Shown: positions 2,846-15,132 of the stretch, piece after piece
Numbering within the stretch: position 1 is the first letter of the stretch
Layout: each line of letters begins with the position of its first letter
Origin: Oscillospiraceae bacterium
GTDB lineage: Bacteria; Bacillota; Clostridia; Oscillospirales; Ruminococcaceae
DNA length: 16,864 nucleotides
Assembly: GCA_017848155.1 (NCBI GenBank)
Contig: JAGAKC010000320.1
Coordinates: forward strand, 1 to 16,864
Reading direction: 5' to 3'
Notes under the pieces: generated by a model
Databases searched by the model: none
What the model was told of the DNA's origin: nothing
Seen by the model: only the letters and a program-made list of their open reading frames with translations
Translations under genes and position numbers: made by a program

Positions 2846-2885
2846 AAAGATCTCGGAAAAGCCTTTTGACTTTTCCGAGATCTTT
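2846..2885. terminator. Bidirectional terminator between the small gene and the secreted pair
   Basis: A perfect 16-bp stem (AAAGATCTCGGAAAAG/CTTTTCCGAGATCTTT) with an 8-base loop has A/T-rich ends on both sides, so it can stop transcription from either strand. It starts at the base after the plus-strand stop and overlaps the minus-strand stop codon. Confidence 0.88.
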
Positions 2886-3993
2886 ATTCTATGGTCATTA
2901 TCCTGCAAGCGCCGTTTGCATCTACCTCGGCAAACACCAGCCTGCCGTAATTCTCATAAATTCCGCAGCGGTCGGAAAAGCCGTCTGCCGATGTTATGCT
3001 GTTGTTATCTATATCCATGATCACAGGGCACGTGTTTCCGAAAAGCACAGTATCTGTTCTCCATACCGCCAGCTTATCCTCCGTCACGGTGACGTCGTAG
3101 GGTCTTGTGCCGCTGCGGGAGCCTGCCAGCCACTCTACGCTCCCCAGATCATTCACATATCCCACAAGACACGGCACTCCAAGGGGACCGCTTTCATCGG
3201 TACGGCGCACTATGCCCCTGTACGACCCTTTCTGATATACATCTGCGTCCATGCATGCATACTTTTCCACAGGTGCTCCATAGAAATCCTCCTGTGCTAT
3301 TCCCATTGACGCATAGTAATCATATGGTTCGGCTTCTATGCAACCGCCCGACCGTTTAGGCGCTCCGCCGAACATCGTTACACCGCATGCATTCATCTCA
3401 TACACGTCAGTGCTGCCGTCCGACCCGTACCTTACATATATGACGGGCAGCGTATATACCTCGCCGTCCACCGTCATCTCATACACTCCGTCGTAGTACA
3501 GCTCACGTCCGAATCGCACGATATCCTCATCTGTCACGGGTATCTCCATAAGGCTCTCCTGCCAGCCGTTCGTTTCACGGATATAACATTCGGATATGCC
3601 GTCAGAGTCTGTCACGGTAAATACGATATATACGCTGTCAGCGTAGTTTACGGCCACCTCTCCCCTGTCATTCGATACAGACTGACAGAAATTGATACTT
3701 CCGTTCGTGCAGTTTACTCTTTTAACGACAGTACAGTTGTTTTCGGTATCCATCTCACTGTAGTACAGCTCGCCCTTGTCTGCACCGATGAGCTGCGCAC
3801 CTGCCGACAGCTGTACAGTGATGTCGTTCACCGTTCCAAGCTCCGACAGCTCCGCCCGATGCAGACCGCTGAGATCGTAATACTTTTCTATATCAAAGCG
3901 CCTGTTTTCGGTGATAGATACTCCGCTCACCGCATATGCCGTAGCTCCTGCCGTGAGCACCGCCGCAAGCGCAGCCGCAGCATGCTTTTTCAT
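2884..3993 (-). CDS. Secreted beta-rich (propeller-like) protein, unknown function
   Basis: This 369-residue protein starts with a short signal sequence, MKKHAAAALAAVLTAGATAYA, without a lipobox cysteine, so it is either cleaved and secreted or retained by its N-terminus. The rest is rich in predicted beta strands and turns with repeating blocks such as GELYY followed by a polar turn and VKRVNCTNGS (about 73-95). This suggests a beta-propeller or related repeat fold. It contains about ten cysteines, which is unusual for an exported protein of a Gram-positive. No catalytic motif was recognised. The ATG at 3993 overlaps the stop of the upstream lipoprotein as ATGA and is preceded by GAGGTGAG, so the two are coupled. 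The two proteins share a recognisable segment and are probably diverged paralogues. Confidence 0.8.
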   Translation of the reverse strand: MKKHAAAALAAVLTAGATAYAVSGVSITENRRFDIEKYYDLSGLHRAELSELGTVNDITVQLSAGAQLIGADKGELYYSEMDTENNCTVVKRVNCTNGSINFCQSVSNDRGEVAVNYADSVYIVFTVTDSDGISECYIRETNGWQESLMEIPVTDEDIVRFGRELYYDGVYEMTVDGEVYTLPVIYVRYGSDGSTDVYEMNACGVTMFGGAPKRSGGCIEAEPYDYYASMGIAQEDFYGAPVEKYACMDADVYQKGSYRGIVRRTDESGPLGVPCLVGYVNDLGSVEWLAGSRSGTRPYDVTVTEDKLAVWRTDTVLFGNTCPVIMDIDNNSITSADGFSDRCGIYENYGRLVFAEVDANGACRIMTIE

Positions 3994-5366
3994 CCGATCT
4001 CACCTCTTTTCACGGTAATGATGCCACTGTCCATCACAACATATATCGCATCACTTTCACGAAGCAGCCTTACATATCCCTGCCCTTCAAGGTCGATACA
4101 GGTGATCTTTTCTGCCGTGATATCAGCCACCGCAATGTATGTGTTTCCGTCCCTGTCCGCACCGCCGACCGCAAATAACCCGTCATCCGTCAGCACAGGA
4201 AGCAGCTGCAGATAAGTCTTACTGCCGCTGTGCAGCACCTCTGCGATGTCATATGCACCATCCTCACCGAAGCCAGCATAGCTGAACGATCTGATAGTGC
4301 TTTCATCCCTTATCATCATACCCATCAGCAGCGGCGACCTCGTATATCCTTCGATATTGCTCCAGCCCTTATACTCGGAAAAAACATGCGACGGCACGGT
4401 AGGGTCATCCGATGTGCACACCACACCGTCATGTCCCAGCCGTGGATAGTGCGCATTGAAGCGGTACATGGTCACTTCTCCCGTGGCGATATCGTATCTC
4501 CTGACGCAGCGTATACCCTCCTCATTATCGAAGTATATTCCCCCGTCATAAAGCTCCAGTGAAATATGATCCTCCAGCACATCACGATCAACAACGGTCA
4601 CGGTGCCGTCAAGGGAGATATGCTTCAGACAGCGCTCACTGCCGTTGTATTCGCTTATCAGCAGACCGTATTCGTTGAACCGCCACAGCCAATATGCCGT
4701 ATCAGCTGTGCCCCCGAACCGCATGAACTCACGTGCCGTGCCATCGCTGCAATCAACGGCAATGATGCTGAATGTCCTCTCATCGTTCTCCAGAACATAG
4801 TATAGCTGTCCGTCCTTTACAAACCTGAGCCTCGGCAGCTCACCCTCATACCCACGGTCGAATGCTCCGCCCTCATCCACCTCTGTCACGTCACGCGGCA
4901 TATCTATATCGGAAAGTAAAGAATACTCTCCCAGTGCGGAAAAATCCGTATCAACTGACGTCACGGAAATATCCATATCCCCGACCTCGCAGTATTCCCC
5001 GTCAAACAGGACGAGCCGTTTCAGCTCCTCCACCTCGTCAGGAAGCTCCTTATCGGGCGGCACCTCTGTCTGAACAGGCGGAACGGTATCGGCGGTACTC
5101 GCCGTCATATCTGACGGGCGGAGAAAATGCGGCACGACCACCGTTTCAGACGATGTATCGGCGCTTTGTGCGGCTGTCACCTCTGTAGCCTCTGTAGCCC
5201 CTGTAGCCTCTGCCACCTCTGCCGTCAGATATTCAGTTGTATCGTCTGCAACATCACGGACGGACGCTTCCGTCCTGCTTTCGGGTACGGAATACTCTTT
5301 CTCATCATCTGCGCAGCCTGACAGCAGCAGTGCTGACACAAGAAATAAAACGGCGATCTTTCTCAT
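3990..5366 (-). CDS. Lipoprotein with Thr/Glu/Ala linker and beta-rich (propeller-like) domain, unknown function
   Basis: This 458-residue protein starts at the ATG at 5366. A GTG at 5378 would add four residues, but the GAGGTG ribosome binding site lies between the two, which favours the ATG. Residues 1-18 form a lipoprotein signal ending in the lipobox LLLSGC, so the mature protein should be anchored to the outer face of the membrane by Cys18. A low-complexity linker follows, including a three-residue T-E-A/V repeat encoded by a 9-bp tandem repeat. From about residue 110 the sequence is beta-strand-rich with propeller-like blocks (for example DGQLYY at about 184, then IIAVDCSDGT). It lies upstream of, and overlaps, the second secreted protein. 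No catalytic residues were recognised. It diverges from spoIIR, but a functional link is not shown. Confidence 0.82.
   Translation of the reverse strand: MRKIAVLFLVSALLLSGCADDEKEYSVPESRTEASVRDVADDTTEYLTAEVAEATGATEATEVTAAQSADTSSETVVVPHFLRPSDMTASTADTVPPVQTEVPPDKELPDEVEELKRLVLFDGEYCEVGDMDISVTSVDTDFSALGEYSLLSDIDMPRDVTEVDEGGAFDRGYEGELPRLRFVKDGQLYYVLENDERTFSIIAVDCSDGTAREFMRFGGTADTAYWLWRFNEYGLLISEYNGSERCLKHISLDGTVTVVDRDVLEDHISLELYDGGIYFDNEEGIRCVRRYDIATGEVTMYRFNAHYPRLGHDGVVCTSDDPTVPSHVFSEYKGWSNIEGYTRSPLLMGMMIRDESTIRSFSYAGFGEDGAYDIAEVLHSGSKTYLQLLPVLTDDGLFAVGGADRDGNTYIAVADITAEKITCIDLEGQGYVRLLRESDAIYVVMDSGIITVKRGEIG
5180..5224 (-). repeat. Five-copy 9-bp tandem repeat inside the lipoprotein linker
   Basis: Five units of period 9 occur on the plus strand: CCTCTGTAG twice, CCCCTGTAG, CCTCTGCCA and CCTCTGCCG. 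They encode the three-residue units AEV, AEA, TGA, TEA and TEV in the linker between the lipid anchor and the folded domain. Copy changes would alter linker length without a frameshift. Confidence 0.85.
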
Positions 5367-5509
5367 GGCACACCTCACAAATTCATTATCTGTAAAAGAA
5401 GTCCGATGTTTTTCAAAAAAAGTTACAGAAAAAAGGTTACGATCTGATTACAGTCTGCCGCTTCGTCCATACTGAAGCTGAAAGGCAATACAGCTACGGA
5501 GGACAGCAT

Positions 5510-9431: not shown

Positions 9432-10562
9432 TTAACCGATAAAGTTACCGTGGAATTTGTAATAATGAAGCTCGCTCTCGAAATTCTTCAGCTGCTTTCT
9501 CACCACACTGTCGTTGATATTGCCCGAAAACTCGACATAGAACATATAGTCGTTGGGATATTTCAGCCTCACATGTACGGGAAGCGGCTTACTCTGTATC
9601 TTCGACAGGCTGAGCCCGTTTACCGCAAACTTAGTCAGCATCCTGTAAAGAGAGCCTGCGATATTCGGCACGGAAAGCGATACCGCTACAGTATCCGCAC
9701 CGTCATAGACCTCAAGATTCTTTGATATGCAGATAAAGCGTGTAGCGTTATTGGGGTCGGTTGCGATATGCTCACGCACTATGCTTAATCCGTGCATCTC
9801 CGCACACTCCGCAGAGCAGATACAGCCAAGCTCATTGCTGGGATTCTCCGCCACCATGAGCGCTGCGGATGCGTTATTATGGTAGGGTATGACAGTAAGT
9901 CCGCTGCGGCTTTCGATGTAATCCTCACACTGACGTATCGCCTGCTCGTGGCCGAAAAGGATGCGGATATCCTCCTCCCTGACGCCCTGCTTTGCCGCAA
10001 GGACATGTGCACATTCAACTCTTGTGGTGCGATTGATATACACACCGTGCTTTTCGAGAAGCTCCATATTAAGTGTGACCTCGCCCGCATTGTTGTTTTC
10101 AATGGGCAGCACGCCGTAATCCACATCGCCGTTTTCTACTGCTTCAAAAACCTCGGCAAAGCTTGCATAGAAGCTGAGATTGCCGTTTTTGAAAAGCTGT
10201 GTCGCCGCAACATGTCCGTAAGCACCTGTCGCACCCTGCACCGCAACAGACGGCTTGTCCATTATCTTGGACAGGTGCAGTATCGGCTGGTCGGGAGTAA
10301 TGTCATTCTGCTGACTGCACTTCGAGATATCCATTATATTCATAAACAGAAAGGCTGCGCTGTTTTTAAGCTCCTCGGGGGAGTTTTCCCTCACCCTGTC
10401 AAGGATAGCCTTTTCCCTGTCGCCCTGAAACACTACCATGTTATTTGCTGCCTTATATCGTGCGACATCGCCTGTGAGAGTCATCCTCTTTCTGAAAAGC
10501 TCCAGCAGCTGTTCATCAATAGCGTCTATATTATTTCTTATCTCTCCTAAATCCAGCTCCAT
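9432..10562 (-). CDS. pheA: Bifunctional chorismate mutase / prephenate dehydratase (P-protein)
   Basis: This 376-residue fusion protein has an AroQ-type chorismate mutase at about 1-85 (IRNNIDAIDEQLLELFRKRM). Prephenate dehydratase spans about 107-280, with the substrate-site TRF at 274-276. An ACT regulatory domain follows at about 290-370. It converts chorismate to prephenate and then to phenylpyruvate for phenylalanine synthesis. The ATG at 10562 is chosen because AAGGAG lies 6-7 bases upstream; a GTG at 10583 would put the ribosome binding site inside the gene, and an ATG at 10565 is only 3 bases from it. The ACT domain usually senses phenylalanine through an ESRP motif; here the aligned residues read QSKP (323-326). 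It follows the kinase-like gene by 66 bp. Confidence 0.95.
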   Translation of the reverse strand: MELDLGEIRNNIDAIDEQLLELFRKRMTLTGDVARYKAANNMVVFQGDREKAILDRVRENSPEELKNSAAFLFMNIMDISKCSQQNDITPDQPILHLSKIMDKPSVAVQGATGAYGHVAATQLFKNGNLSFYASFAEVFEAVENGDVDYGVLPIENNNAGEVTLNMELLEKHGVYINRTTRVECAHVLAAKQGVREEDIRILFGHEQAIRQCEDYIESRSGLTVIPYHNNASAALMVAENPSNELGCICSAECAEMHGLSIVREHIATDPNNATRFICISKNLEVYDGADTVAVSLSVPNIAGSLYRMLTKFAVNGLSLSKIQSKPLPVHVRLKYPNDYMFYVEFSGNINDSVVRKQLKNFESELHYYKFHGNFIG

Positions 10563-10585
10563 CATTTTCTCCTTTTTAACCACAT

Positions 10586-10628: not shown

Positions 10629-12407
10629 TTATTCGACAGGTATTCCGCCGCCCTCGTTTTCATCGGGCTGCGATTCCTCGGCACCTGATGCCTCGGATGT
10701 CTGCGGCGCCTCTTCCGTTTCAGGCTCCTTCTTTTCCTTTGCAACGTATACGGTGATGGTTTCACCCTCCGCAACGTTTACAAGGTCGCCTACCTCCTTG
10801 CTGCACTTTGCAACATGTCCCGGAGGTACATCATTGGTCTCCTTGTCCTCTACGGAATACTTGATATTAAGTCCGTTAAGCTCCGCAATATACTTGTCCA
10901 CCGTCATATCCTTGTACTCGGGCAGCTTCACAAGGCTGGGACCCTTGCTGACCTTGACCTCGATCTGTGTGCCCACAGCCACCATAGTACCTGCTTCTAT
11001 GCTCTGATCGTACATGGCACCTGCCACATAATCGTCGGAATACTCGTATGTGGGAACAAAGGTGAATGTACCCTCATAGCGGCTTACAGTGCTTTCGTAG
11101 CGTCGGTCGGTAAAGTCAGGCAGACTGATGTTTGCGTCCACGACAGGCGCTTCCTCGCTCTCCTTAACAGGCGGCTCCTCTGTTTCGGGCGGCGCCACAG
11201 GCTCTGTCACAGGCGGCGGTGTAGTCACCGCTTCCTGCGTTACGACCTCGGAGGTCTCGGCGGCTGATGACGTGTTATTATCCTTTGGATTCATGGACAT
11301 TATGAAAATAACGGCAAACGTGATAAGTACAAGACCTGCCATGATCAGCATAGCTATGGTCTTTGCACGCTCGCGCTTCTGCTTTTTCAGCTTCTTTGCC
11401 TGCTGCTTCGTCAGCGGCTTTCCGTTGGCATCTCTGTTGATACCGACATATTTCGGCTGCTCAAACAGCTTATCCACAAACTCGGTTATCGTGCGTATCC
11501 TGTCCTCGGTAGAGAGCGAAAGACCACGCATGATGACCCTCGACACATTGGAGGGCACGTTGCGGTTTATCATCATCGGCTCCAGCATACTGCTGCCTGT
11601 CCTTGCGATAGCCTCTGTCGGTGTGCAGCCTGTAAGGCATCTGTACAGCACCGCCGCAATACCGTAAACATCCGTCCAGGTACCATTCCAGTCGTTTGCG
11701 GTATACTGCTCGGGGGCAGCGTAGCCTGCAAATATCTCGCACGCTATCTCGGTGTTGGTGGTGCGTGCGGCGGATATGGAAAATCCCGTCAGCTTAAGCT
11801 CCAGCTTATCTGTAACATAGATAGTGGACAGGCTTATTCCACGATGGATGACGCCTGCCGCATGAACAAGTGACAGCGTCGTGAATATCGGCGGAAAAAG
11901 CTCCTTTATCTGCTCCCACATCAGCTCGCCTGAGGAGTTTGCAAGATAGGTGCTGAGCGGTATGCCGTTGATAAATTCAAACACCACATATGCCGTGTTG
12001 TTTTCGGAAAAGACATCAAGCACCGTCTGAAGATGCGACATGCCACGGGACTTCATAAGAGTCCTGTTGAGGTCGATGAATTCCGAAAGATACGTCTTAT
12101 ACAGCGGCATCATATCGGAATTGACCGTGATGAGCTCCTCACCCTTTTTACGGGAGCACATGGTATCCGGCATGAATTCCTTTATCGTTACCTTAGTACC
12201 TGTCGCCGTGTCAAAGCCGATATATAAAGCGCCCTCGCCGTTATAGCTCAGCACCTTGCCTATGATATACCGCTCATTAAGAAACGTCCTCGGTCTGAGG
12301 TATGAGGGGATACAAGGATTGTCATCGCTGTATCCGCATAGCTTGCAGGGACCGTCATACGTCTTGTCGCACATGCAGCCCATGCATAGAGAGGTTTCTT
12401 GTAACAT
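10629..12407 (-). CDS. Zinc-ribbon / protein-kinase-like / PASTA membrane protein, predicted pseudokinase
   Basis: This 592-residue protein begins with a Cys-rich zinc-ribbon-like stretch (C8, C11, C13, C21, C24, C32). A protein-kinase fold follows at about 47-325 with a glycine-rich loop NGEGALYIG, the strand-3 lysine K76 (VTIK) and an intact GYAAPEQY segment. The catalytic loop reads HRGISLSTI (188-196), where active kinases have HRDxxxxNI, and the metal loop reads TGFS (207-210) instead of DFG. The catalytic Asp, the Asn and the DFG Asp are thus all missing. A transmembrane helix (about 347-369), an acidic Thr/Pro/Glu linker, two PASTA domains (about 427-489 and 490-557) and an acidic tail follow. 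PASTA domains bind muropeptides or lipid II in PrkC/StkP. It is the first gene of the long operon. The architecture is certain; loss of activity is inferred. Confidence 0.9.
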   Translation of the reverse strand: MLQETSLCMGCMCDKTYDGPCKLCGYSDDNPCIPSYLRPRTFLNERYIIGKVLSYNGEGALYIGFDTATGTKVTIKEFMPDTMCSRKKGEELITVNSDMMPLYKTYLSEFIDLNRTLMKSRGMSHLQTVLDVFSENNTAYVVFEFINGIPLSTYLANSSGELMWEQIKELFPPIFTTLSLVHAAGVIHRGISLSTIYVTDKLELKLTGFSISAARTTNTEIACEIFAGYAAPEQYTANDWNGTWTDVYGIAAVLYRCLTGCTPTEAIARTGSSMLEPMMINRNVPSNVSRVIMRGLSLSTEDRIRTITEFVDKLFEQPKYVGINRDANGKPLTKQQAKKLKKQKRERAKTIAMLIMAGLVLITFAVIFIMSMNPKDNNTSSAAETSEVVTQEAVTTPPPVTEPVAPPETEEPPVKESEEAPVVDANISLPDFTDRRYESTVSRYEGTFTFVPTYEYSDDYVAGAMYDQSIEAGTMVAVGTQIEVKVSKGPSLVKLPEYKDMTVDKYIAELNGLNIKYSVEDKETNDVPPGHVAKCSKEVGDLVNVAEGETITVYVAKEKKEPETEEAPQTSEASGAEESQPDENEGGGIPVE

Positions 12408-12489: not shown

Positions 12490-12518
12490 AATATAACCCA
12501 AACACGCTGAAAAGTCAA
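12490..12518 (-). promoter_or_regulatory. Predicted sigma-A promoter of the pseudokinase operon
   Basis: On the minus strand, TTGACT (12518-12513), a 17-bp spacer and TATATT (12495-12490) form a good vegetative promoter. It would give a 5' leader of about 75 bases before the ATG at 12407. Confidence 0.78.
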
Positions 12519-12731: not shown

Positions 12732-13484
12732 ATGTCATTCAAGCACAAAACAAAAGAAGAGATACTGGAATCAAAGGAAGCAAAGCTCACAAGGATGTTT
12801 GCAGAGATGAATTCCGCAAACGAAAAGGGCAAGGCAGATAAGCTGGTCTGCGAAACCGAATGTACCATGGCAAGGATACGCTCGCTGTCAGATTTTCTGT
12901 ACCTTTTGAGAATAAAGCCGCTGCAGACGCTCTGCTACTATGCGGCATGTGCCTTTCTGCTGCTGATGCTTGCGGCGCTGTGGTGCAGCATAGGCTTCAT
13001 GGACAATATGAAGATGGCGGTATGGCACCTTGTGGCGATATTCGGAGTGCTTTTCCTGATATTCGCAACGCTGCCGCACAACATGAGGATACACTACTTC
13101 AACAAGCAGGCTGACGCACTGGAAAGATCATACGGCAAGATAATCAATGCGGAATTTTCCGATGACCGCATCGTACTTTCCGTCAGCAGCTCCGTCCCCC
13201 ACAAGCAGGAGCTTGACGAGGAGGGAAACGCTATAGCACGCCGCTCGGCTCTTGCAAAGGACGAAAGCAGCACGGTGGTAACTGAGATCCCGTACAAGAA
13301 CATCGACTACGCTTATGAGTGCAGCCACAGCTTCTACATCTTCCCCGTGGACGAGGAAAGAAAAAAGCTGGACACGATAATCTGCGACAAGACCCAATTC
13401 CTGCGTGGCACGCCCATGGAGCTTCGTGACAGGCTCGCAAGAGGCTGCGGAAAGCGTTTCAGGATAAAGACAAAGAAGGCATAA
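12732..13484 (+). CDS. YcxB-like two-helix membrane protein
   Basis: This 250-residue protein has a charged cytoplasmic N-terminus (about 1-60). Two adjacent transmembrane helices follow at about 66-88 and 96-115. The C-terminal domain of about 130 residues contains IPYKNIDYAYECSHSFYIFP and a basic end. This layout, two helices and then a PH-like beta domain, resembles the YcxB family, whose function is unknown; the match is by pattern only. Seven or so charged residues in the first 30 suggest an amphipathic helix. AAAGGAA lies 8 bases before the ATG. It is a single-gene unit, divergent from the pseudokinase operon and closed by a strong terminator. Confidence 0.82.
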   Translation: MSFKHKTKEEILESKEAKLTRMFAEMNSANEKGKADKLVCETECTMARIRSLSDFLYLLRIKPLQTLCYYAACAFLLLMLAALWCSIGFMDNMKMAVWHLVAIFGVLFLIFATLPHNMRIHYFNKQADALERSYGKIINAEFSDDRIVLSVSSSVPHKQELDEEGNAIARRSALAKDESSTVVTEIPYKNIDYAYECSHSFYIFPVDEERKKLDTIICDKTQFLRGTPMELRDRLARGCGKRFRIKTKKA

Positions 13485-13518: not shown

Positions 13519-15132
13519 TTATGCAACATTACTGGTAAGATTATTGTATCCGCCCTTGCGAATGATCTTCGCATAGTCCTTATAGGACAGGTTCAGGTCA
13601 ACATATCCGTCGATTCCCGAAACGATGCCCTTACTGCTGTACTGCCAGATGCCGAAAGGCCCTGTGTACGTGGGAACTGTATTCCACTGTGCCAGCCACA
13701 CATCATACTCGGACAGCTTCGACATATCAAGGTAGTTCGTAAGCCAAGCCTTGTTTGAATATATCATCGCATAATAGCCTGCGTCACGTATCTCATCGAG
13801 GAAAGCCTTGCAGATAGCTGTTATCTTATCCTTTCCGAGATCAGCCTGATACTGCTCCTCAACGTCGAGCACGACAGGATAGGTTATCTTGTACGGCTTT
13901 ATGGTTTCAATGAAGAAGCGTGCTTCCTTGACCGCTTCTTCAACAGTTGTGGCATACAGATAGTGGTAAACTCCCACATCTATGCCCATTGCCGTTGCCT
14001 GGGTCACATTGTACTCAAACGTGATATCCTGCGCCATAGGCTTCTTCTCGCTTATGTAGCCTCTTGAAGCACGGAGTATCGCAAACTCGATGCCTGAACG
14101 CTTTACCTCCGCCCAGTCTATCGCACCCTGCGCATAGGAAACGTCGATGCCCTTTCTGCCCGTATCGGTGGCTTCATCGCTTCCCGAAGAGCCGCCCGAG
14201 CCGCTGTTGTTGTGATAGCGGTAGTCTATCAGCCTGCTGGACTTGGACACCGCAAAGCGTGCGCCCTTTGCCTTGTAATATCTCACGGTCTTTTCAAACA
14301 CGAAAACACCGCTGTTTATCGTTTCGCCATAAAGATAGAATCCGCCCGCAAAGGAAACTCGTCCGCTGATCGAAACTGCAAGATATCCCTTGTTCATCAG
14401 CTTTCCGCCCTCGGGAGTCTGAAGATCGCCCGTCACGGTCATCTTCGCACTCTTGCTCAGCGTCGTCGTGCCGTAGTTTACGTACATTCCGCTCTTATGG
14501 ATGTTCACTGCGCCCGAAAAAGCACAGGACGAGCCGCTTCGTGCAATGTACTCTCCCTGAAGTCTGAATACCGAGCTCAATGTACCCTTGACCTTGCCGT
14601 AGACCTCGGCAGCAGCACCCTTGTACAGCACCATATTTCCCGATACGGTAAGCGTCGATTTCGGCTCAACGACAATGCTTCCCTTTACCTTTAAGCTCTT
14701 CCCCTTGAAGATGGTCAGCTGTGCACCTGGAGTGATGACGAGCTTACTTCCCTCGGGCACTGTAAAACCTTTTTTCGGCTTTATCGTGCCGCTTATGTAG
14801 TAATTCGTGCCTGCCTGCATCTTGGTCTTGCCGTCCCATTTTGTGTAGCCGCTGACATCTATCGGTGTATAATCTATATCCGAAAGGTCAACGTTGGTTT
14901 CAGCCTTTGCGCCTTCCTCCTCGGGAGTTATCACCACCACCTCGGGACTTTTACCGCCTGCACCGCTGTCGTCGGGGTCTATCGTTGACGCTCCGCCGTC
15001 GTCAACAGGGTCGATTATGGTCGTTTCGTTTCCTGCGGCTGATGGCGCTTCGTCCTCGGCAAATGCGGAAGCTCCGCTTAATGCTATGGTCGTTGCCAGC
15101 ATCAGAGCAGCTATCTTTTTGAATATAGTCAT
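13519..15132 (-). CDS. Secreted GH25 muramidase (lysozyme) with solenoid-like N-terminal region
   Basis: This 537-residue protein has a signal peptide at about 1-25 (cut after ASAFA), then an acidic Ser/Asp/Glu linker to about 80. A long region of short beta strands with recurring L-x-V-x-G units spans about 105-305 and suggests a beta-solenoid. A Gly/Ser linker follows, and then the catalytic GH25 domain from about 328. That domain has KGIDVSYAQGAIDW with Asp330, YHYLYA, and LDVEE with Asp423 and Glu425, the residues expected for cleaving the N-acetylmuramic acid to N-acetylglucosamine bond of peptidoglycan. The C-terminal placement of the catalytic domain and the lack of LysM or SH3 repeats are notable; the solenoid may serve as the wall- or glycan-binding part. 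It has its own promoter and a GGAG site 8 bases before the ATG. Confidence 0.92.
   Translation of the reverse strand: MTIFKKIAALMLATTIALSGASAFAEDEAPSAAGNETTIIDPVDDGGASTIDPDDSGAGGKSPEVVVITPEEEGAKAETNVDLSDIDYTPIDVSGYTKWDGKTKMQAGTNYYISGTIKPKKGFTVPEGSKLVITPGAQLTIFKGKSLKVKGSIVVEPKSTLTVSGNMVLYKGAAAEVYGKVKGTLSSVFRLQGEYIARSGSSCAFSGAVNIHKSGMYVNYGTTTLSKSAKMTVTGDLQTPEGGKLMNKGYLAVSISGRVSFAGGFYLYGETINSGVFVFEKTVRYYKAKGARFAVSKSSRLIDYRYHNNSGSGGSSGSDEATDTGRKGIDVSYAQGAIDWAEVKRSGIEFAILRASRGYISEKKPMAQDITFEYNVTQATAMGIDVGVYHYLYATTVEEAVKEARFFIETIKPYKITYPVVLDVEEQYQADLGKDKITAICKAFLDEIRDAGYYAMIYSNKAWLTNYLDMSKLSEYDVWLAQWNTVPTYTGPFGIWQYSSKGIVSGIDGYVDLNLSYKDYAKIIRKGGYNNLTSNVA

Follow-up and report, generated by a model that had tools for sequence, protein, structure and literature searches.

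The sequence comparisons support the identification of the 592-aa protein encoded in the window (the whole stretch of 16,864 nucleotides of DNA that was analysed) as a pseudokinase receptor, which is conserved and under purifying selection. On balance, we consider it probable that this protein is a catalytically dead PASTA receptor of ancient descent. It probably signals via partner binding instead of phosphorylating its partners, because the parts required for phosphotransfer are lost, and the dead version is kept across genera and, where checked, beside a working kinase. A preliminary description of this DNA had read the protein as a pseudokinase sensor related to PrkC and StkP. The dead, conserved kinase under purifying selection agrees with that reading; the kinship with PrkC and StkP is limited to the layout, and the nucleotide site is more damaged than had been described. 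The features of the gene and the protein, with coordinates on the window, are as follows.

12490-12518, minus strand: promoter-like site TTGACT-17-TATATT upstream of the pseudokinase gene, 10/12 matches, from a pattern match only
10629-12407, minus strand: PASTA pseudokinase gene, an open frame of 592 aa with PF00069 and PF03793 matches
12336-12386, minus strand: N-terminal four-cysteine zinc-ribbon-like motif, C8-x2-C11-x9-C21-x2-C24, from the Cys pattern, with putative zinc binding
11448-12308, minus strand: pseudokinase domain, residues about 34-320
12231-12248, minus strand: degenerate glycine-rich loop, S54-Y-N-G-E-G59 (GxGxxG in active relatives)
12180-12188, minus strand: beta-3 strand T74-I75-K76, with the Lys kept in the 592-aa protein and the Ala of VAIK replaced
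12069-12071, minus strand: L113 at the alpha-C Glu position, from row comparison and alignment to PpkA
11820-11846, minus strand: catalytic loop HRGISLSTI, with G190 for Asp and T195 for Asn, from the sequence and the homologue alignment
11778-11789, minus strand: metal-binding loop TGFS, with G208 for the Asp of DFG and F209 kept
11838-11840, 11823-11825 and 11784-11786, minus strand: codons of Gly190, Thr195 and Gly208
11709-11717, minus strand: A231-P232-E233 of the APE segment, with G228 and E233 common to active kinases
11295-11360, minus strand: membrane helix at about residues 350-371, preceded by a stretch rich in Lys and Arg, from the sequence and a predicted helix at 334-371
11133-11294, minus strand: low-confidence linker, about residues 372-425, with pLDDT <50 at 374-396 and 407-420
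10944-11123, minus strand: PASTA domain 1, scoring above the family cut-off
10737-10931, minus strand: PASTA domain 2, from a Pfam-type family match

The pseudokinase domain is predicted to form a complete kinase fold, and the model places one long helix (334-371) at the membrane segment, the topology of which we take from the positive-inside rule. The membrane helix and the PASTA pair named in the preliminary description are both present, the former as a predicted helix and the latter as PASTA family matches. PASTA domains are found in 69/69 aligned pseudokinase members, and the four cysteines of the N-terminal motif are invariant in alignment A1 (69 sequences). The nearest solved structure to the pseudokinase domain is PpkA, and the pseudokinase profile also matches the PASTA part of the PknB structures 3py9, 3m9g and 2kui. 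Promoter-like sites occur seven times in the window, compared with 3.6 expected in shuffles.

The catalytic loop HRGISLSTI and the metal-binding loop TGFS are as the preliminary description had claimed. The surrounding sequences read HRGISLSTIYV and ELKLTGFSIS, in which G190, T195 and G208 replace the HRD Asp, the Asn and the DFG Asp; the interval 11778-11840, to which these losses had been assigned, covers the codons from G190 to S210. By the general measure of a pseudokinase, a predicted kinase fold in which the HRD Asp and the DFG Asp are replaced, the 592-aa protein would be counted as one. The APE segment, which had been described as kept, is indeed represented by PE(Q). The best 120 of the 2820 homologues found are 65-100% identical, the first of them (P0001) being the query itself, and all lack Asp190, Asn195 and Asp208, which rules out a sequencing error or chance; position 190 is Gly in 120/120. 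Two further lists were compiled, each of the best 120 homologues, with a query from a second family-level group (of 490) and one from a genus distantly placed in the same family (of 6419). Position 190 is Gly in 360/360 of the homologues listed (best 120 each of 2820, 490 and 6419, the three queries included), one of which is unreadable at the N-lobe positions.

The same position was read in 119 aligned loci from 118 genomes, a set that overlaps with the homologue lists, so that the counts are not additive, and from which loci with an aligned kinase part of <=200 residues and second fragments of one locus had been dropped. Gly occurs in 113 of these loci, Ala in two, and Ser, His, Asn and Leu in one each; Asp occurs in none. 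No pseudokinase locus that was read carries Asp190, and a lone mutant among intact orthologues is thereby ruled out. Across 92 pseudokinase rows, the HRD Asp is never retained (0%), and of the DFG motif the Asp survives in 15% and the Gly in 6.5%.

Degradation of the nucleotide site also goes further than the preliminary description had indicated. The glycine-rich loop had been regarded as kept; instead, GxGxxG reads S54-Y-N56-G-E-G59, and two of the three glycines are lost. Of the 92 pseudokinase rows, 1.1% have G54 and 2.2% have G56, whereas both are present in 100% of 31 active relatives. Two further losses had gone unnoticed in the preliminary description. The alpha-C Glu, replaced here by L113, is found in 0% of the 92 pseudokinase rows and in 100% of the 31 active rows, and a profile alignment to the PpkA structure sets the Glu of FIQEA against Leu113 and HRD against HRG. 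The Ala of VAIK, replaced here by T74, remains in 2.2% of the 92 rows, with Glu, Thr, Leu, Trp, Val, Phe or another residue in its place. Unlike the pseudokinase, the 31 active zinc-ribbon relatives keep GxGxxG, VAIK with its Ala, the alpha-C Glu, HRD and DFG. Lys76, also described as kept, is retained in the 592-aa protein and in 116/120 of its close homologues, but the family-wide residue is Arg (48 Arg and 28 Lys in an 85-row nonredundant set, from which rows >62% identical to a retained row were dropped). As far as the alignments indicate, nearly every residue for holding or using Mg-ATP is lost somewhere in the family, and most are lost in the 592-aa protein. Nucleotide use is unlikely, given the degenerate glycine-rich loop, the missing alpha-C Glu and VAIK Ala, and Arg at position 76 in 48 of the 85 rows.

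The strongest rival explanation, a non-catalytic nucleotide binder that acts as a nucleotide-gated switch, bears on the same residues. The retention of Lys76 in the own genus and the nearest kin (116/120 of the best-listed homologues) leaves room for nucleotide binding there; moreover, ATP binding is described for certain eukaryotic pseudokinases that have Arg here, and has been modelled for one bacterial family with the same residue (PMC12599244). Such a switch is nevertheless unlikely, as the P-loop is short of two glycines, the Glu of alpha-C and the Asp of DFG are missing, so few rows keep the VAIK Ala, and position 76 is Arg or His in 116/120 of the list from the second family-level group (best 120 of its homologue search).

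The pseudokinase gene is matched in 43/43 genomes of the genus, although one genome (G022) contains a C-terminal fragment only and the matches in two others (G023 and G033) are without the N-terminus. In the family, a search at E 1e-45 gave a match in 224/247 genomes, a few of which may be other zinc-ribbon kinases. Thirteen of the 23 genomes without a match at this threshold were re-searched with a profile. The gene is present and was read in G080, G088 and G122; G068, G142 and G164 have unread matches, G098 has an N-terminal fragment only, and the profile gave no pseudokinase candidate in G051, G058, G079, G085, G089 and G162, which are 55-89% complete. A search of the order found full-length matches in 24 genomes of the second family-level group (f24) and in one genome of a third (f23); the catalytic Asp is absent from every one of these loci that was read, 14 from f24 and the one from f23. 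The named genera among the pseudokinase homologues include Gemmiger, Allofournierella and Caproiciproducens, and nine named relatives are Oscillospiraceae or Clostridia records, the nearest being metagenome-assembled genomes. From the occurrence of Gemmiger and Allofournierella, and of Caproiciproducens and Caproicibacter, among the homologue names, we infer that the own family-level group (f1) and f24 correspond to Ruminococcaceae and Acutalibacteraceae in the GTDB sense. Judged by these loci, the dead form is conserved in gut bacteria of many genera.

An intact PASTA kinase, which the preliminary description had suggested looking for, is encoded elsewhere in the own genome: PrkC (L182) has HRD, DFG and three PASTA domains, compared with two in the pseudokinase. 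PrkC is matched in 42/43 genomes of the genus, the exception being G022, which is 69% complete; the catalytic motifs of PrkC were read for two genomes, the own one and G110. Some families of the order have PrkC-like matches but no full-length pseudokinase match, so that what ties PrkC to the pseudokinase is co-occurrence and shared PASTA domains only.

In a neighbourhood survey of 81 loci, a simple gene caller found the pseudokinase in 78, and no gene family adjoins it in more than 10 of these 78; the genome context therefore names no partner. The pheA gene (chorismate mutase-prephenate dehydratase; 9432-10583, minus strand) lies 45 bases downstream of the pseudokinase gene, with no obvious link; it is also the next gene downstream, on the same strand, in 9/10 loci from the genus and in L074, which belongs to a different genus. 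A divergent gene (12732-13484, plus strand) encodes a 250-aa protein that has hydrophobic stretches but matches no Pfam family, and is found beside the pseudokinase in 7/10 same-genus loci and in no other loci. This gene separates the pseudokinase gene from one for a GH25 lysozyme-type protein (13519-15132, minus strand). An FHA partner, as in MviN, was considered and rejected: the single FHA match of the own genome, a 137-aa frame, sits on another contig (C242), unlinked to the pseudokinase gene. That contig (L237, L002 and L003) carries two active zinc-ribbon kinases together with the FHA-domain protein and a PP2C-like frame that has a hydrophobic segment, a set that looks like a separate phosphorylation module.

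A role confined to sporulation or germination would have a parallel in PrkC, which acts in Bacillus spore germination. In its favour, SpoIVA is matched in 21/28 searched genomes, five of the own genus included, and Spo0A in 12/12, reduced genomes included. SpoIVA is, however, unmatched in 5/5 genomes of 0.7-0.9 Mb from two genera (g69 and g88), and also in G240 and G282, though present in members of their genera. The same five reduced genomes keep the pseudokinase, which was read in two of them (L170 and L171; G110 and G129) and is a match only in the other three (G201, G215 and G267). The role is thus probably not confined to spores, and we regard a spore-only function as improbable.

Compared with the ATP site, the remainder of the domain is well preserved. 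Residues kept in at least 90% of both the active and the dead sets include Y62, E77, P80, F110, T138, Y140, H188, G228, E233, Q234, Y235, D246 and R303, among others, and we take these to be fold-holding positions. F209 is retained in 69/85 nonredundant rows. In the activation segment, R215 is found in 84/92 and Ser or Thr at position 219 in 69/92 pseudokinase rows, an arrangement that would suit phosphorylation in trans by PrkC. The pseudokinase domain is 78-91% identical to those of six congeners, compared with 48-73% for the PASTA domains and 41-56% for the membrane helix and linker, and the dead kinase domain is the most constrained large part of the protein. In the congener comparison, dN/dS is about 0.05-0.11, values that are rough because dS is close to saturation. 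The PASTA pair is highly variable within the genus, so that a conserved ligand would be hypothetical.

These patterns bear on three weaker explanations. Some other transfer chemistry, such as the AMPylation of SelO or the polyglutamylation of SidJ, has precedents among such folds (PMC12599244), and the near-invariant Gly190 indicates that the site is constrained. SidJ, as described there, reuses the ATP-site Lys and the metal-site Asp, whereas here the Lys is found in 28/85 rows and Asp208 in 15% of rows; the two occur together in 2/85, and the 592-aa protein has the Lys only, which makes this explanation very improbable. A working kinase that uses displaced residues is less credible still. 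Asn195 is retained in 26/85 and Asp208 in 11/85 nonredundant rows, but the catalytic Asp is retained in 0/85; the best-preserved rows combine Asn195 with Lys76 (11/85) or Asp208 with Lys76 (2/85), and the full residue set occurs in no row. A decaying pseudogene or an assembly error, which the source of the contig might suggest (a draft genome of 2.39 Mb in 498 contigs, 77% complete), can practically be dismissed, since dozens of genomes have an open frame of comparable length and dN/dS in the dead domain is low.

The kinase domain of the 592-aa protein appears to derive from the zinc-ribbon kinases. In a kinase-domain tree built without the motif columns, 92 pseudokinases and 33 active kinases are split at one branch (SH-aLRT 98); the HRD Asp changes once on this tree, and the Asn and the DFG Asp 13 times each. 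A smaller tree (85 pseudokinase and 16 active rows) gives the same split with a support of 92. Since the catalytic Asp is general in kinases, its single change is a loss. As far as the tree tells, the pseudokinase family is of one origin. Both trees were rooted on PrkC by choice, and therefore do not by themselves place the pseudokinases beside the zinc-ribbon kinases; this placement follows from the shared four-Cys N-terminus, the HRxIS-type loop and the profile scores, which reach about 359 bits for zinc-ribbon kinases vs about 100-137 bits for the kinase part of PrkC. The score against NF033483 (PknB_PASTA_kin) is 141.4 bits, below the 450-bit cut-off. The catalytic Asp is kept in the 16 zinc-ribbon kinase loci read outside the three family-level groups (f1, f23 and f24), and PASTA domains are absent from the six zinc-ribbon kinases scanned by Pfam. 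Descent from PrkC by decay was considered and is disfavoured by the profile scores and the shared four-Cys motif; the trees agree, with the PrkC rooting chosen. The PrkC/StkP-like character given in the preliminary description therefore holds for the layout of kinase fold, membrane helix and PASTA domains, but the kinase domain and the zinc ribbon are nearer to the 'HRDISPDN' zinc-ribbon kinases. In kinship, the protein is probably a chimera, a member of the zinc-ribbon kinase lineage with PASTA domains rather than a decayed PrkC.

The reading that we favour, that of an inherited dead receptor, starts from what the sequences show: a kinase domain of the zinc-ribbon Hanks lineage is coupled to one membrane helix and a PASTA pair, and the catalytic Asp is missing across three family-level groups. 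The glycine-rich loop, the VAIK Ala and the alpha-C Glu have been lost from nearly all members and the Asn and the DFG Asp from most, while the fold-holding residues and the four-Cys motif are kept under purifying selection. The PASTA pair would lie outside the cell and read the state of the wall, and the dead domain would relay this state inside by protein-protein contact, with no phosphate transfer. There it may serve as an allosteric partner, a substrate or a scaffold of the PrkC phosphorylation pathway of the same cell. Binding of wall fragments by the PASTA domains and signalling by conformation, as envisaged in the preliminary description, may belong to the same scheme. We put forward a more specific proposal tentatively, and consider it doubtful: two large families of gut bacteria may possess an obligate wall-sensing PASTA pair, a live PrkC and a dead zinc-ribbon pseudokinase that acts on PrkC, as an allosteric switch or by steering it to substrates, via a mixed dimer; the pair would have been established before these families diverged and retained in genomes as small as 0.7 Mb. 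Receptor kinase-pseudokinase pairs are known in animals, and if this proposal is true, the PrkC-pseudokinase pair would be their bacterial counterpart.

Several known systems resemble parts of this scheme. The protein shares with PrkC, StkP and PknB (NF033483) an inner kinase-fold domain, one membrane helix and then PASTA domains; unlike them, it has lost the catalytic residues (HRDxxxxN and DFG) and carries the four-Cys motif. The zinc-ribbon 'HRDISPDN' Hanks kinases of Clostridia have the same four-Cys N-terminus and are the nearest active relatives by score and tree. In Mycobacterium tuberculosis, PknB is reported to phosphorylate the pseudokinase domain of MviN, which recruits FhaA (PMC12599244, PMC6180346), and by analogy MviN-PknB-FhaA would be the nearest described logic to the proposed mechanism. 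MviN/MurJ (ActPs3) is likewise a peptidoglycan-linked pseudokinase domain phosphorylated by a PASTA kinase; in contrast, it is an actinobacterial MurJ fusion with an activation-loop deletion, whereas the protein described here has its own PASTA pair and a full-length activation segment (PMC12599244, PMC6180346). Segment 210-230 is free of a deletion in nearly all of the 92 rows, and there is no MurJ domain; ordinary kinases fill the 50 structure matches listed, so that the absence of MviN-type pseudokinases from that list is uninformative. EssB/YukC of type VII secretion is described as a membrane pseudokinase that acts by scaffolding but, compared with the 592-aa protein by description only, is part of a secretion machine (PMC12599244). 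The Clostridioides difficile protein CD2148 is a second Hanks-type protein beside PrkC, is reported to show no autophosphorylation in vitro and was phosphorylated in vitro only with PrkC, and its authors cannot exclude that it is a pseudokinase; it differs in having no PASTA domains and in not being known to be dead (PMC9674922).

Bacterial pseudokinases are described as largely unexplored experimentally in a 2025 review, which distinguishes 42 kinase families, of which five consist wholly and two partly of pseudokinases (PMC12599244). The available text of this review describes no PASTA receptor pseudokinase, has the word 'PASTA' once, in a reference, and does not contain 'Clostridia'; the descriptions given there of the DYD, DLHK, GLW, CP1, ActPs1 and ActPs2 families include no PASTA receptor (PMC12599244). 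A literature search, conducted mostly at abstract level, with no preprints and few subscription journals, found no PASTA pseudokinase receptor of this kind. What we call new is a PASTA receptor that has inherited its kinase in a dead state.

The family joins a dead kinase to the standard wall-sensing domain of bacteria, lineage-wide and in commensals that include named genera. Some sources give its members names such as eukaryotic-like or non-specific serine/threonine protein kinase, while others have 'PASTA domain-containing protein'. The serine/threonine kinase names are probably wrong, in which case kinome counts would come out too high in these families, by about one kinase per genome.

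Several other loci were observed in passing. In five genomes (G186, G089, G056, G100 and G050; L164 and L166-L169), neighbouring pairs of zinc-ribbon kinases have large C-terminal parts and reach up to 1192 aa; three kinases of these pairs were scanned and are without PASTA domains. The window also contains two overlapping secreted or lipoprotein-like genes on the minus strand (2884-3993 and 3990-5378), which encode proteins of 369 and 462 aa with no Pfam matches. Elsewhere in the own genome, contig C140 (L239-L241; frame L239:592-2013) encodes a kinase-less PASTA receptor of 474 aa with a four-Cys motif, a hydrophobic segment, TPR repeats and three PASTA domains, which is 59% identical to the PrkC ectodomain over 408-728 and has similar matches in G006 and G030. 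On contig C41 (L245), two PASTA domains are located on a penicillin-binding-protein-like frame adjoined by a MurE-like frame, both named by eye.
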